DNA of 64,000 nt from Halosegnis longus (GTDB lineage: Archaea; Halobacteriota; Halobacteria; Halobacteriales; Haloarculaceae). The number at the start of each line of letters is the position of its first letter. The stretch's first letter is position 1. Location: the NCBI RefSeq assembly GCF_009663395.1, contig NZ_QKNW01000002.1, positions 62,001 to 126,000 of the forward strand, written 5' to 3'. Below, one piece after another: positions 17,790 through 61,977 of this stretch. The notes beneath the pieces are model-generated. The model saw only the letters and a list, made by a program, of their open reading frames with translations. It was not told the DNA's origin and did not search any database. Position numbers and translations under genes: made by a program.

Positions 17790-19109
17790 TCAGCTTTCGC
17801 CGCGAAGTTGTGCGGCAACGACACTATCGAGTTCGTCAGGGTGCAAGTCGTTGATTCGGGAATCCTCACGAAGCGTTTCCATGATGGTCGTCGGCTCCTC
17901 GGCGAACCGGAATTCAAGGAACACACCACTCGTCGGGCCACGTGACTGGCGCTCGAACTCAACGAGCGAGTACGTCGTGAGTTCCTTCATTTTGTTCACG
18001 TAACTCTCCTGCTGGTACTGCTCGGCATCAATCGACTCGCAGATATACTCGTAGACACGGAAGCCGGTCGTCGAGCGCGCTGTCCCATCGGTGGACTCAG
18101 CCGCCACCGCGGCCGTCGCATACAGACAGAGCTTCTTCTGGGTCGAGATGCCGCGGACGACCTCAAGGACCCGATTCTTCTCGACGTTCGCTTGGGCTTG
18201 CTCGACGTGTTGGGCCGTGACCGTTGCATCCCCGCCGCGCTCGGCAAGTTCCCCAGCGACGCGCATGAGATCGATCGCCTTCCGTGCGTCACCGTGCGTC
18301 TGTGCGGCATACGCAGCTGCGAGCGGGATTACGTCACCATCCAGCACACCGTCGGCGAAGGCATCCTGCCGTCGATGGAGGATATCCTGCAGTTGGTTCG
18401 CATCATAGTCACCGAAGTGAACCTCCTCAGGCGTGTACGAGGAGAGGGCTCGTGAATCAACCTGCTCGAGCATCTTGGTGTCGTTGGAAATTCCGACAAT
18501 CGAGACGTGGGCATCGAAGGCATCGGCTTGCCCACCGGCTCGCGACAGTTGGTACAGCAACCGAGAGAACGCGGGTTCATCCTTATCGCGACGGCCAACG
18601 AGCATGTCGAGTTCATCGAGGATGATGACGACCGCGTCGAAGTGGTCGTTGACGATACGATAGAGTTCATCCCATTTCTCCTTGGTCGCCACCCCGTGTT
18701 TCGGGACTTCGACCTCGACGCCAGCAGCGTCAGCAGCGCGTTCAGCGAGCTCATAGACAGCAACACCGAGGGTATCCAGGTCCTGGCAGTTGAGCTCGAT
18801 CGTGCCGAAGCGGATACCTCGCTGTGCACAGATGGCGTCGATCTTGTCACAGACGGCCTTCGAGATGAGCGACTTCCCCGTTCCGGAGGGGCCGTAGAGA
18901 AAGAGATTCGGTGGTCGATTCCCGCCAATCGCAACACGAAGCATCCGTGTGATCTCGGTCAACTGGTCGTCACGGCCAACGATGCGGTCTTCATCGACAA
19001 CGTGTGTCGGGTCAAGCAGGCTCCGGTCCTGGATCAGCTGCGCTCCCTCATCGAACTCGAGCAGCATATCCTCGATAGAGGGATCGGCATCGTCGGCGTC
19101 GGGAGTCAT
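17790..19109 (-). CDS. orc1: Orc1/Cdc6 replication initiator
   Basis: This 439-aa AAA+ initiator binds origin repeats and loads the MCM helicase. The start at 19109 gives MTPDADDADPSIEDMLLEFD; a longer frame to 19169 merely translates a copy of the origin repeat. Visible are Walker A (GPSGTGKS), Walker B (VVIILDELD), sensor 1 (VGISND) and sensor 2 (GDARKAIDLM). A C-terminal winged helix of about 100 residues follows (TTGFRVYEYICESIDAEQYQ, VNKMKELTTYSLVEFERQSR). Its length is usual for the family. Repeats with core CGATAGAGGGGTGTG lie on both sides, so it should be the initiator of this local origin. It is a plasmid-type paralogue by context; the number suffix cannot be assigned. Confidence 0.95.
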   Translation of the reverse strand: MTPDADDADPSIEDMLLEFDEGAQLIQDRSLLDPTHVVDEDRIVGRDDQLTEITRMLRVAIGGNRPPNLFLYGPSGTGKSLISKAVCDKIDAICAQRGIRFGTIELNCQDLDTLGVAVYELAERAADAAGVEVEVPKHGVATKEKWDELYRIVNDHFDAVVIILDELDMLVGRRDKDEPAFSRLLYQLSRAGGQADAFDAHVSIVGISNDTKMLEQVDSRALSSYTPEEVHFGDYDANQLQDILHRRQDAFADGVLDGDVIPLAAAYAAQTHGDARKAIDLMRVAGELAERGGDATVTAQHVEQAQANVEKNRVLEVVRGISTQKKLCLYATAAVAAESTDGTARSTTGFRVYEYICESIDAEQYQQESYVNKMKELTTYSLVEFERQSRGPTSGVFLEFRFAEEPTTIMETLREDSRINDLHPDELDSVVAAQLRGES

Positions 19110-19142
19110 AGACAGACTCTGTAAGGGAGATGGCAAAAAGCT

Positions 19143-19614
19143 TCGGACACCTCTATCGAAATGTATCATACGTCAAGACAGCGTAACTGGTCGGTTTAGT
19201 ACAGAATCGAAGTTATCCGCGGTGCCGAGACACACCCCAGTATCGAAATGAACACGGGGAGACACACACCCCTCTATCGATATGTTCGAGCTGAGCGTGT
19301 GTCGGCCGCGAGAAGCCCAGTATATCGGCGAGAGCGGGTTAATAACGTATGTTGACGGTAGAATCGGCGAGGCTGTCGAATTCTTGATCGTTTTCTCTTT
19401 TCTTTCTTCTTTCTAGTAACAACACAACACACACACACACCTGTATCGATTTGTTCGAGATGTTTCGTGCTAGGTCGTCACACCCTTAGTCCGTCAGCCG
19501 GAGTAATCTGCAGTCTTACCCTCGTTATCCGGCGATAATCGACACTCTCGACGAAACCGATGGCCGACGCTGGCCACAGACGCCCAGGGGGAAACATATC
19601 GATAGAGGGGTGTG
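19143..19614. other. Putative replication origin upstream of orc1
   Basis: Four leftward repeats (19143-19164, 19230-19251, 19264-19285, 19433-19454) and one rightward repeat (19600-19614) surround a low-GC pyrimidine tract. The tract (ttttctcttttctttcttct, 19391-19410) is followed by an (AC)n run ending at 19440. Archaeal origins typically pair such initiator-binding repeats in inverted orientation around an unwinding element next to orc1. That is the arrangement seen here, with 19280-19435 as the best unwinding-element candidate. Confidence 0.75.
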
Positions 19615-58679: not shown

Positions 58680-59060
58680 TCACTCGTAGTCGTAGCCCCA
58701 CTCCCGAAGCTTCGCCGCGACGAGGTCCTCATTCTCCTGCGCGACCAGCATAGCTGCCTCACGAACGTCCGACTTCGGAACTGACTCACCGAGCCGCCCC
58801 TCAACTGTGTCGCGAAGGTCGTCTTCGCCCTCGCGAACGAAGTCCCGAAGGAAGAACGGGACTTGATCACGTCCTTCGTTGACCTTGCTTCGCCGGTGGA
58901 TGTACGGCAAGCGGGGTGTCGATGGCTCCGTGGTTCCGCTGTCGTCGACCGATGTTTCTGCTGTTTCGGTGGGCTCCACATCTGTCTCCTCGACGGATTC
59001 TTCGACCTCTTCATCATCGCTGTCGTACGGGTCGCCCGATGAGCCGGATTTGAGCCCCAT
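58680..59060 (-). CDS. Acidic partner protein of ParA
   Basis: This 126-aa protein starts MGLKSGSSGDPYDSDDEEVE. Residues 1-50 are a very acidic, disordered Glu/Ser/Thr leader. The C-terminal half is a compact helical domain (LPYIHRRSKVNEGRDQVPFF, LRDFVREGEDDLRDTVEGRL, SDVREAAMLVAQENEDLVAA). Its start follows the parA stop directly, so the two are one operon. By analogy with small plasmid partition operons it is the likely DNA-binding adaptor for the iterons at 59960, although no classical HTH is obvious. Confidence 0.8.
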   Translation of the reverse strand: MGLKSGSSGDPYDSDDEEVEESVEETDVEPTETAETSVDDSGTTEPSTPRLPYIHRRSKVNEGRDQVPFFLRDFVREGEDDLRDTVEGRLGESVPKSDVREAAMLVAQENEDLVAAKLREWGYDYE

Positions 59061-59915
59061 CTACGCCACCCCCTCCACGATGCCTGCTTCACGTTCAAGA
59101 TGACGTGCAAGGTCTTCGAACGCTTCGAGCGTGTCCATCTCGTGATCACGCTCTCGCGAACGATGCTCGTCGACGTACGCGAACGGCGAGCATTGTTGTC
59201 GCCAACTCCCTTCCATCAGCGACGCCCGCTCGCCGATGACAATCGGCACATCGAATGGCCCCTCACGAAGCTCATCAAGGATCTCCTGTTGGTCATTGGT
59301 TCCCTTGAAGCCGATCGGGACGACCGCTAAGACTCCGACATCAACGCCGGTGTTCTCTTCTAACCCGGTCACAAGATCGTCTAGTCCCTCAATGGACTCC
59401 TGTCCCTTCGCTGTTGCCTCGAACGGGATGACGACGTTTCCTGTTGCTACGAGCGCATTGTACAGTACCGGGCCGGCCTTGCCTGCCGTGTCCACGATGA
59501 GGACATCATACCGGTCGCGAACGTTGGCCTCGTCAAGAACACGGTGGAGTTGGTGGTATACCGAGTACGACCGTCCGAGCTTCGAGGCCTTCTCTTGTTC
59601 CTGAATCAGCAGTTCAGGAAGGTCCTCAAGCATGTTGTGTGATGGGATGAGGTCAACGCCTGCTTCGACGGTCTCGACTAACCCGTCAAACGGCCCCTCG
59701 GGACTGTCGACCATGTGCTTGACGAGATTGTCGGCCGATGAGTCACCGCGGTCGTATCCGTCTGGCCCGAACAGATAGGTGAGTGAGCCATTCTGGGTAT
59801 CAAGATCGATGCAGAGGACATCGAGTCCGGCGCGTGCGTGTGCGACCGCGAGTGTCCCAGCTGTCGTTGTCTTTCCAACACCGCCAGCTTCGGAGACTGG
59901 CGTGTACGCGAGCAT
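59061..59915 (-). CDS. parA: ParA-type partition ATPase
   Basis: This 284-aa ATPase has the deviant Walker A SEAGGVGKTTTAGTL, the ParA-specific LDVLCIDLDTQNGSLTYLFG, Walker B VLIVDTAGKAGPVLYNAL and a C-terminal helical part. It is the haloarchaeal type without an N-terminal HTH. ParA drives segregation of low-copy replicons, working with the downstream acidic protein and a centromere. The tandem 13-bp iterons 45 bp upstream are the likely centromere/operator. Together with orc1 40 kb away it supports a replicon of its own. Confidence 0.95.
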   Translation of the reverse strand: MLAYTPVSEAGGVGKTTTAGTLAVAHARAGLDVLCIDLDTQNGSLTYLFGPDGYDRGDSSADNLVKHMVDSPEGPFDGLVETVEAGVDLIPSHNMLEDLPELLIQEQEKASKLGRSYSVYHQLHRVLDEANVRDRYDVLIVDTAGKAGPVLYNALVATGNVVIPFEATAKGQESIEGLDDLVTGLEENTGVDVGVLAVVPIGFKGTNDQQEILDELREGPFDVPIVIGERASLMEGSWRQQCSPFAYVDEHRSRERDHEMDTLEAFEDLARHLEREAGIVEGVA

Positions 59916-59959
59916 GGTTCTGGCGTCGGTGAGACATCTATTAAATGTTAGCCATATTG

Positions 59960-60063
59960 TGTAGTTAGTGGGTATAGTTATGAGCTATAGTTGGCTGTTA
60001 TAGTTGTAGGCTATAGCTGGTGTATGTGGCTACAAAATATAGTTGCTATGTGTAGTTGTAGTG
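59960..60063. repeat. Eight tandem 13-bp iterons upstream of parA (putative centromere)
   Basis: Octamers at exact 13-bp spacing: TGTAGTTA (59960), TATAGTTA (59973), TATAGTTG (59986, 59999), TATAGCTG (60012), TGTGGCTA (60025), TATAGTTG (60038), TGTAGTTG (60051). The array is AT-rich against a GC-rich genome and sits immediately upstream of the parA start. This is the expected form and place of a partition site or operator. Confidence 0.85.
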
Positions 60064-60807
60064 TGTCGGCACTACAACCTCTCATACGGCCGATTTCGAC
60101 GGTCTCAGAAGTTCTGACAATATTCGAGGCCAATTTGCCTGTGGACAGCTATGCGCTTTCTGAGAGCCTCCTACCCGATATCTCTCAGCGCCAACGGTGT
60201 CGTCGTTGTACACGGGCAAATTCGCAAACGCTCGGTCGGAGGGCCTGGACCTCGCGACTCAGAGGTATCGCCATCAGAACCACATAATAACCGTAGAGGC
60301 TGATGACACGATGACCAACTAGGTGGCCTGTCCCAGACAGATCTATCGCAATCGCTGCTTACTGGTCATCAGCTGCACCGTACTATGCACTATTATGCGC
60401 TATTGATCGTTGCCACATGATCTCCTACCGAAGCTGAACACGAGCGCCGGGGTATCGAATGGTATTCTAGAAGAGCTCCGGGCAGACCAAGCTAATATTG
60501 CTGAGCTTGGACACAATCTCTTGGAACCAACGCCGGTTGCACAACGTCGTCGCGCCTACCTGCCAACAGCTGGAATGAATCACGCACGTCGATTGTTGTG
60601 GTTGCTCGGCCACTCGCCACTGGTGGTGTCGCAGATTCAATATAGCAGTATACACTTTATCGATGGGTAAAACAACCGAATATCGTGGCTTGAGGTGTCT
60701 GAGAGGCCAGTATTCTGGGTCTCACTACCTGATCTATTCCACTCAGTTGTAATGCAATACAAATGAGTGGCTATTTGCACCTCCACGCTGTACGGTCATC
60801 ACGACGC
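60064..60807. other. Gap between the centromere and the recombinase gene
   Basis: No gene is called. An 86-codon rightward frame (60410-60670) contains ILEELRADQANIAELGHNLL, which is protein-like, but has no ribosome-binding context, recognised family or stop-to-start relation to a neighbour. The recombinase frame is open from an alternative ATG at 60763. Confidence 0.4.
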
Positions 60808-61977
60808 ATGCCCCAGGACTCAGACCGCCCATACCCGGCTGCAGACGACGCCAGCACCGACACGCCGGCGCTTGACCGACTCGTTGCGGATTTCCTCCGT
60901 TCCAAGCGACGTGACTCGCAGGCGTACGCAACCTCTGCCGAGTCAGTGTTGGAGCGGTTTGTCGACTGGTGTGGGCGTCGGGGGGCAACACTCGAACGCA
61001 TCGACGATAACGACCGCATCCTTCGCGAGTACGCGAAACACCTGCAGCGGCGTGTCGACGGCGACGGCATCGCTGCCTCAACGGCGAACGCCTACTTCAG
61101 CTACGTCTCGGCATGTCTCTCCTATGGGGTTCGGGATGGGGTACTCACGCGGAATCCAGCATTGAGTGCAAGCGCACAAGAGGAACTCCCAACAGCCGAA
61201 CAAACCCAGGCTGACCAGCAGTTTTGGACGCCGGCCCAGCGGGAGCAACTGGTCGCTCATGTCGACGAGCGGGCCCGAACGGCGATCAGTGACCGCGCGT
61301 TCGATGCCCACATCGAGGCTCGGGACCGCGCGATTGTCGCTGTCCTCGCGTATACCGGGGTGCGAGGAGCAGAGGTGTTTCGCCATCCACAGGATGACCG
61401 AGACGGCCGACAAGGGCTTCGCTGGGGGCGCGTCGACTTGGACGCGGGTACGGCACGCGTCCTGGGGAAATCGAAAGAGGAGAGCAAACGCTGGCAGGAG
61501 GCATCACTGGTCAAACCGGCTCGAGAGGCACTCCGCCAGCTCAAACGCGTCCAACGGCCGCCGACGGACGATTGGCCAGTGTTCGAAACGGCACATGCGC
61601 CGTCACTCCACCGAGCGGCTGATGCGGTGCTCTCGGAGGCAGCCAAAACCGAAGCACTAGAGACGTATGGGGGAATCCGTGAGGTGTTGCGCGAGCACGA
61701 GATCACCCCGCCAGCGCTCACGACCGATGGGGCACGGCGGCTGATGCAACGGCTCACCGACGCAGCCGAAATTGACGTGCCCAACGGGACGTACCTACAG
61801 CCCCACGGTGCACGGCGTGGCATCGGAGAGGCCGTGTATCGCGAAGATCGGGAACAGGCACAAGATCTACTGCGCCACCAGTCGCTCTCAACAACGAAAG
61901 ATCACTACCAGCATATCGACGCTGCAGAACGAACAGAGGAGCTTGACGAGACCCTGGGGTTCGGGGACGACGCGTAG
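60808..61977 (+). CDS. Tyrosine recombinase (Xer/phage-integrase type)
   Basis: This about 389-aa recombinase starts MPQDSDRPYPAADDASTDTP; an in-frame ATG at 60763 would add 15 basic residues. The SAM-like N-terminal domain (LDRLVADFLRSKRRDSQAYA, FVDWCGRRGATLERIDDNDR) is followed by the catalytic domain with Arg in YTGVRGAEVFRHP, Lys in VLGKSKEESKRW, His/Arg in LQPHGARRGIGE, His in DLLRHQSLSTT and nucleophile Tyr in KDHYQHID. All catalytic residues are intact. Its place by parA suggests resolution of replicon multimers or integration. No attachment core was identified. Confidence 0.9.
   Translation: MPQDSDRPYPAADDASTDTPALDRLVADFLRSKRRDSQAYATSAESVLERFVDWCGRRGATLERIDDNDRILREYAKHLQRRVDGDGIAASTANAYFSYVSACLSYGVRDGVLTRNPALSASAQEELPTAEQTQADQQFWTPAQREQLVAHVDERARTAISDRAFDAHIEARDRAIVAVLAYTGVRGAEVFRHPQDDRDGRQGLRWGRVDLDAGTARVLGKSKEESKRWQEASLVKPAREALRQLKRVQRPPTDDWPVFETAHAPSLHRAADAVLSEAAKTEALETYGGIREVLREHEITPPALTTDGARRLMQRLTDAAEIDVPNGTYLQPHGARRGIGEAVYREDREQAQDLLRHQSLSTTKDHYQHIDAAERTEELDETLGFGDDA

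Follow-up and report, generated by a model that had tools for sequence, protein, structure and literature searches.

The 13-bp repeat array upstream of parA on a Halosegnis longus replicon is very probably the centromere of a haloarchaeal megaplasmid partition (par) locus, and probably also the operator of its operon, as judged from the sequence of the locus and from its relatives. A partition site at this position was the original prediction, and the comparative evidence supports it. The locus combines the array with a ParA-type ATPase that lacks the signature lysine of its family and with a small acidic partner protein, which is likely the reader of the array.

The par operon and its replicon

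The window, i.e., the whole 64,000-nt stretch of DNA analysed, comprises bases 62001–126000 of a 181,532-bp contig, and the same assembly includes the chromosome, as a contig of 2.45 Mb, and another contig of 136 kb. The 181,532-bp contig is very likely an independent megaplasmid, since it encodes its own Orc1/Cdc6 replication initiator (17790..19169, minus strand; TIGR02928, 1.1e-123), which places replication functions away from the array, at a distance of about 41 kb.

The parA gene (59061..59915, minus strand) encodes a 284-aa ParA/MinD-type ATPase with no N-terminal DNA-binding domain (Pfam AAA_31, 5.6e-21; PHROG ParA-like partition protein, 1e-32). The P-loop occupies residues 10–16, with the AAA_31 domain starting at residue 10, and Soj/ParA proteins are matched in the PDB. 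As originally described, parA is followed by the gene of a small acidic partner, a 126-aa protein encoded at 58680..59060 (minus strand), and the two genes abut without overlap.

Beyond the array, a tyrosine recombinase gene is found at 60763–61977 of the window (Phage_integrase, 2.3e-10). A site-specific integrase likewise adjoins the par locus of pHLAC01 of Halorubrum lacusprofundi, and the recombinase beside the par locus is perhaps a dimer-resolution module. A different ParA gene is located on the 136-kb contig (L003, G000:C3:61540-62034), with a canonical SAKGGTGKT motif, its own acidic downstream partner and no 13-bp array, so that at least two kinds of par locus are present in this genome. 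Finally, the chromosome carries a truncated remnant of the ParA family of the window (L002, G000:C1:15722-16042), perhaps the trace of a past plasmid integration.

The 13-bp array

Direct reading shows eight 13-bp units at positions 59960–60063 (plus strand), in an exact 13-bp step, with the consensus TRTAGYTR followed by 5 bp. The units start at 59960 (TGTAGTTA), 59973 (TATAGTTA), 59986 and 59999 (both TATAGTTG), 60012 (TATAGCTG), 60025 (TGTGGCTA), 60038 (TATAGTTG) and 60051 (TGTAGTTG). All eight octamers thus lie where they had been predicted; seven match TRTAGYTR exactly and the unit at 60025 carries one mismatch. The parA ATG is located 45–148 bp downstream. The AT-rich island reported directly before parA is also found, with a GC content of 37–44% against 55–65% nearby.

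The array stands out statistically from its surroundings. A search with the paired pattern TRTAGYTRn5TRTAGYTR, allowing up to two mismatches, returns seven overlapping matches in the 64-kb window, all of them at the array, where 0.35 would be expected, and at most three in 100 shuffles. The lag-13 self-match over the 104 bp of the array is 0.604. No lag of 7–30 gives a higher value anywhere in the window, and 3000 first-order simulations of the AT-rich segment stayed below it at every lag (maximum 0.564). In the pattern search of the 2.77-Mb genome no second array appeared, the only hits being two isolated two-mismatch matches, and Rfam gave no match at the array.

The array reads TRTAGYTR n5 in the window, and the consensus of its class (class A, see below) is TATAGCTATA n3. 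The class-A unit is a near-palindrome, TATAGCTATA, plus 3 bp, with a self-reverse-complement correlation of 0.78, and the TATAGTTG of the window is a variant of it.

Between the array and parA, 23–30 bp upstream of the ATG, lies the TATA-box-like sequence TTTAATAG (59938..59945, minus strand), which was read directly; a TTTATA is equally placed in most class-A homologues. It probably marks a leaderless promoter of parA. The array lies just upstream of this box, so the complex formed on it probably controls parA expression as well. The same position would suit an array that is an operator only, through which the partner or ParA autoregulates the operon while the true centromere lies elsewhere. 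This option is improbable: the arrays often comprise 7–12 units and in some loci reach 400–700 bp from the gene, some replicons carry further arrays downstream of the partner gene, and neither the window nor the pattern search of its own genome reveals another such repeated site. Moreover, operator and centromere are commonly one site in the known small-partner systems.

A second element, GTCTGAC, precedes parA in 69 of the 105 loci (e.g., L004–L018), belonging to all partner classes, and also in L003 (at about 1410), L174 and L175. Its start is nearly always 41–44 bp before the parA ATG, and a degenerate copy is found in the window. A GTCTGAC-like element also precedes canonical-lysine ParA genes without arrays, and the element is found before a ribbon-helix-helix (RHH) gene on the chromosome of the same organism (C1:1404482). 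It is possibly a common promoter or regulator site.

Recurrence across haloarchaeal loci

The sample comprised 126 loci from haloarchaeal genomes and plasmids, 105 of them with distinct ParA (52–100% ParA identity). These loci were drawn by ParA similarity, with more distant lineages outside the sample; at the sensitivity used, the ParA-family matches listed were all within the haloarchaeal order. The absence of a periodic array from homologous loci, together with a lack of binding by ParA or its partner, had been named beforehand as grounds for rejecting the prediction; the first of these two did not come about. The best upstream period, among lags of 7–30, is 13 or 26 bp in 100 of the 104 distinct loci with enough upstream DNA (13 in 64 loci, 26 in 36). 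The exceptions are four class-E (Haloarcula-type) loci, which show one or two clear units each. The mean lag-13 self-match is 0.408 upstream of parA and 0.262 in downstream control DNA. The 13-bp signal was not seen upstream of 49 other ParA genes from viral contigs (mean 0.27), all of which encode the signature lysine.

The distribution of the arrays within genomes was analysed by searching for paired class-A units in nine class-A genomes. Matches were obtained in eight of them, all on the parA-bearing contig and nearly all at most a few hundred bases away from the operon, some being just downstream of the partner gene. A replicon thus nearly always has a single cluster of units. A general regulatory motif would not be expected to be placed in this way, but a site that acts in cis on a single replicon would. 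Three additional class-A arrays were recorded (G201:C3:153342-153390, G010:C1:123629-123664 and G292:C3:1543-1785), one of them on the parA-bearing replicon but 80 kb away from the gene, and two just downstream of the partner gene. Another class-A genome shows an isolated unit pair far from parA. Several such par loci can occur in one genome.

The same parA/partner pair is carried by the haloviral contigs L171–L173, with clear arrays in L172 and L173 and a weaker periodicity in L171; the viral scans yielded three family members, of class D only. In L171, a second partner-like C-terminal sequence is located directly upstream of the parA region, within 300 bp, and is perhaps a captured or decoy reader.

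Array dialects follow the partner protein

The arrays fall into five sequence dialects that match partner classes A–E. Unit consensus sequences were obtained by phase-locked folding; a free-EM motif model was dropped, as it blurred the consensus because the units have two dyad axes. In class A, to which the window belongs, the partner domain contains VNEGREQVPYFLR and the units read TATAGCTATA. Class B combines the domain sequence VQDGRDRVPLFLQ with TGAACA/TGTTCA units, class C combines VQFERDERLTFFVH with TGTTnCAAACG, class D combines ITDGRxxTVQLHLQ with GRTAWSTnTCTTA and class E combines DRKQRPIFIRP with RTAKCTAWWC.

When the arrays were compared without regard to class, the nearest array came with a partner of the same class 95% of the time, versus 21% in permutations (maximum 39%). 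The partial Mantel correlation between motif and partner given ParA is 0.60 (permutation maximum 0.07), array and partner gene being co-inherited, so that part of the covariation is ancestry, for which ParA distance served as the control; the correlation between motif and ParA given the partner is 0.00. Individual class pairs behave in the same manner. Classes B and D, whose ParA proteins are the most alike (67%), have unlike arrays (0.29), whereas classes A and E have distant ParA proteins (56%), the most similar partners (49%) and similar arrays (0.67). Since the array sequence follows the partner and not ParA, the partner protein is likely the reader of the array, in agreement with the suggestion that the 126-aa protein acts as the adaptor.

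Within the partner domain, the partial correlation with the array is highest for the loop and second helix (0.54; VYKSD in most class-A members). The third helix comes next (0.47), ahead of the pre-helix and strand segments (0.38), and the first helix is last (0.14). This ranking suggests where in the domain the DNA may be read.

The dialects also bear on two further interpretations. An AT-rich island with direct repeats resembles an iteron origin, which the replicon needs, and the array might be taken for the iterons of a Rep or Orc1/Cdc6 protein. Against this view, the Orc1/Cdc6 gene of the replicon is remote, the array of the window has no gene for an initiator next to it, no gene beside the array is annotated as an initiator in the three annotated plasmids examined, and the array sequence tracks the ParA partner; an origin function is therefore very improbable. 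It is equally hard to credit that the array is read by a chromosomal host protein, such as a nucleoid or cell-division regulator. The deletion of CdrS in Halobacterium does misregulate three par-family genes, sojA, sojB and sojE (PMC7439475), and the GTCTGAC element near −42 has a fixed position common to most loci. However, the array sequence varies between par loci together with the linked partner, whereas a host factor would favour one sequence, and the CdrS ChIP sites are confined to the main chromosome in Haloferax volcanii (PMC8406309).

The partner protein

A small acidic partner ORF directly follows parA in all 105 loci, either abutting it or sharing 1 or 4 bases with its stop codon, and in the annotated plasmids examined its product is a 'hypothetical protein'. 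The gene context and the dialects make the protein of the window (58680..59060) a candidate centromere-binding adaptor. According to the alignments, the partners consist of an N-terminal peptide, an acidic stretch that is variable and a C-terminal domain that is conserved.

The N-terminal peptide of the window partner, MGLKSGSSGDPY (59025..59060, minus strand), includes a K-x-G-[AST] motif that occurs within the first dozen residues in 105 of 105 homologues. In bacterial systems, ParA is stimulated by N-terminal peptides that carry an Arg or Lys at their centre (PMC12462528), and the conserved K-x-G peptide is accordingly a probable ParA contact.

The C-terminal conserved domain (58680..58910, minus strand) is the candidate DNA-reading domain. 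In an AlphaFold model of one class-D domain (pLDDT 79), an extended segment precedes three helices, at residues 24–41, 47–57 and 62–71, an order that would suit a ribbon-helix-helix fold with an extra helix. This strand-helix-helix order, together with the precedent of ParG, omega and SegB, prompted the RHH reading of the partner.

The original prediction held that the partner has no obvious helix-turn-helix and that the adaptor may be of a new type. All the searches are consistent with the lack of a known DNA-binding domain, although a diverged RHH is compatible with them too. The partner has no match in Pfam (including RHH_1), NCBIfam or PHROGs, and a profile of 15 partners against PDB sequences gave no match, with no SegB chain at E ≤ 10. 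When compared with 27 aligned haloarchaeal sequences from an RHH_1 search, the hhalign probability is 3%, the same as for the reversed control, in a comparison that a diverged RHH could escape. The AlphaFold monomer of the whole partner (pLDDT 68) has no fold match, and Foldseek and VIA-align found no convincing relative of the class-D domain monomer, only weak helical matches (best Z 4.7), a result that a two-chain fold could escape.

A ParA family without the signature lysine

The ParA family is defined by a deviant Walker A motif, KGGxxK[ST], with a signature lysine (PMC9178275). In the window the P-loop reads SEAGGVGKT, with Ala10 at the signature-lysine position, and Ala is present there in 105 of 105 family members, versus a lysine in 49 of 49 other ParA proteins from viral contigs. 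Another lysine, Lys170, is invariant in all 105 homologues, inside the motif PxExxxKG. It aligns to residue 171 of a deposited chain of McdA in an ungapped 68-residue fragment that is weak alone (E about 0.9), while the match of the whole window ParA to McdA reaches 6.7e-06. The substitute lysine of McdA, on the adenine-side loop of the C-terminal half, which we take to be Lys151, would be chain residue 171 if the tag comprises 20 residues. In the haloarchaeal family Lys170 may stand in for the signature lysine, or the N-terminal lysine of the partner may do so, or neither.

McdA, the carboxysome-positioning ATPase, resembles the haloarchaeal ParA in being without the signature lysine (PMC6328274, PMC8262871); its P-loop reads SGGQGKT (PMC9178275, Table 1), and the cyanobacterial protein is an active ATPase (PMC6328274, PMC8262871). 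The two differ in that McdA, together with McdB, places carboxysomes without using a DNA site, whereas the haloarchaeal locus includes an array and its partner is unrelated.

A further-reaching proposal can be made from these features, although we consider it rather unlikely. The partners would form a new centromere-binding family, with a fold that is neither RHH nor helix-turn-helix (HTH) and with at least four to five specificities, and the ParA would use a lysine from elsewhere, either Lys170 in cis or the partner N-terminal lysine in trans.

Relation to known partition systems

The SegAB system of Sulfolobales is similar in that a ParA-type ATPase and then a small partner are encoded by successive, overlapping genes, with partner sites upstream of the ATPase gene and a 13-bp palindromic recognition unit (that of SegB, upstream of segA) (PMC12284271, PMC5120986). 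However, SegB sites (TCTAGASTCTAGA) occur dispersed along the chromosome, whereas the haloarchaeal arrays are tight, with a 13-bp step, other sequences and a location nearly always beside parA. In addition, the haloarchaeal partner has no sequence match to SegB structures and the haloarchaeal ParA has Ala where the signature lysine would be.

In bacterial type Ib plasmid partition, the partners have a flexible charged N-terminal tail, as does the haloarchaeal partner. The delta/omega system of pSM19035, ParF/ParG of TP228 and pB171 share with the haloarchaeal locus a small ParA without an N-terminal DNA-binding domain, a small partner encoded just downstream and an upstream repeat centromere that overlaps the control region of the operon (cf. 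PMC9178275). The haloarchaeal locus differs in its 13-bp repeat length, the lack of detectable partner kinship, its haloarchaeal lineage and the loss of the signature lysine.

The pNOB8 system of Sulfolobus has three components, with the HTH protein AspA and a separate ParB, whereas the haloarchaeal locus has two and no HTH was found in it. The AspA–ParB–ParA system is alike as an archaeal plasmid partition system with a site-specific DNA-binding adaptor (PMC5120986).

Judged by its sequence features, the locus would work like bacterial type Ib loci and SegAB yet is assigned to neither. The absent signature lysine sets it apart from canonical ParABS systems, and partner sequence, motif and site distribution set it apart from SegAB.

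Proposed mechanism and significance

For a partition locus of this kind, the following mechanism can be proposed. Using their C-terminal domains, partner dimers would bind one 13-bp unit after another, the units being partly palindromic, and so assemble a partition complex. The acidic flexible linker of the partner would offer the N-terminal Lys-containing peptide to ParA and boost its ATP turnover. By analogy with the ParA family, ParA-ATP would bind nucleoid DNA non-specifically, and cycles of capture and release would shift and space out the plasmid copies ahead of division. The partner–array complex, given its position, probably also sets parA expression. Partner lineages that read distinct arrays would make co-resident megaplasmids compatible.

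A 2016 review counted among the open questions what kind of centromere archaea have, on chromosomes as well as on plasmids (PMC5120986). The par genes of Halobacterium plasmids respond to the loss of CdrS, in a study where sites are not mentioned (PMC7439475). No description of these arrays was found in the open-access literature searched. Concrete candidate sites and their probable reader proteins can now be named on about a hundred haloarchaeal replicons, including PHS2 of Halobacterium salinarum and pHME132 of Haloferax mediterranei, both of them laboratory species.

A partition ATPase without the signature lysine would also be a test of the purpose of that lysine. Through the natural code between partners and arrays, specificity, plasmid compatibility and the swapping of centromeres become open to direct tests. 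If the proposal of a new partner family and a lysine-swapped ParA were true, haloarchaeal megaplasmids would have in this pair their standard machine for DNA segregation.
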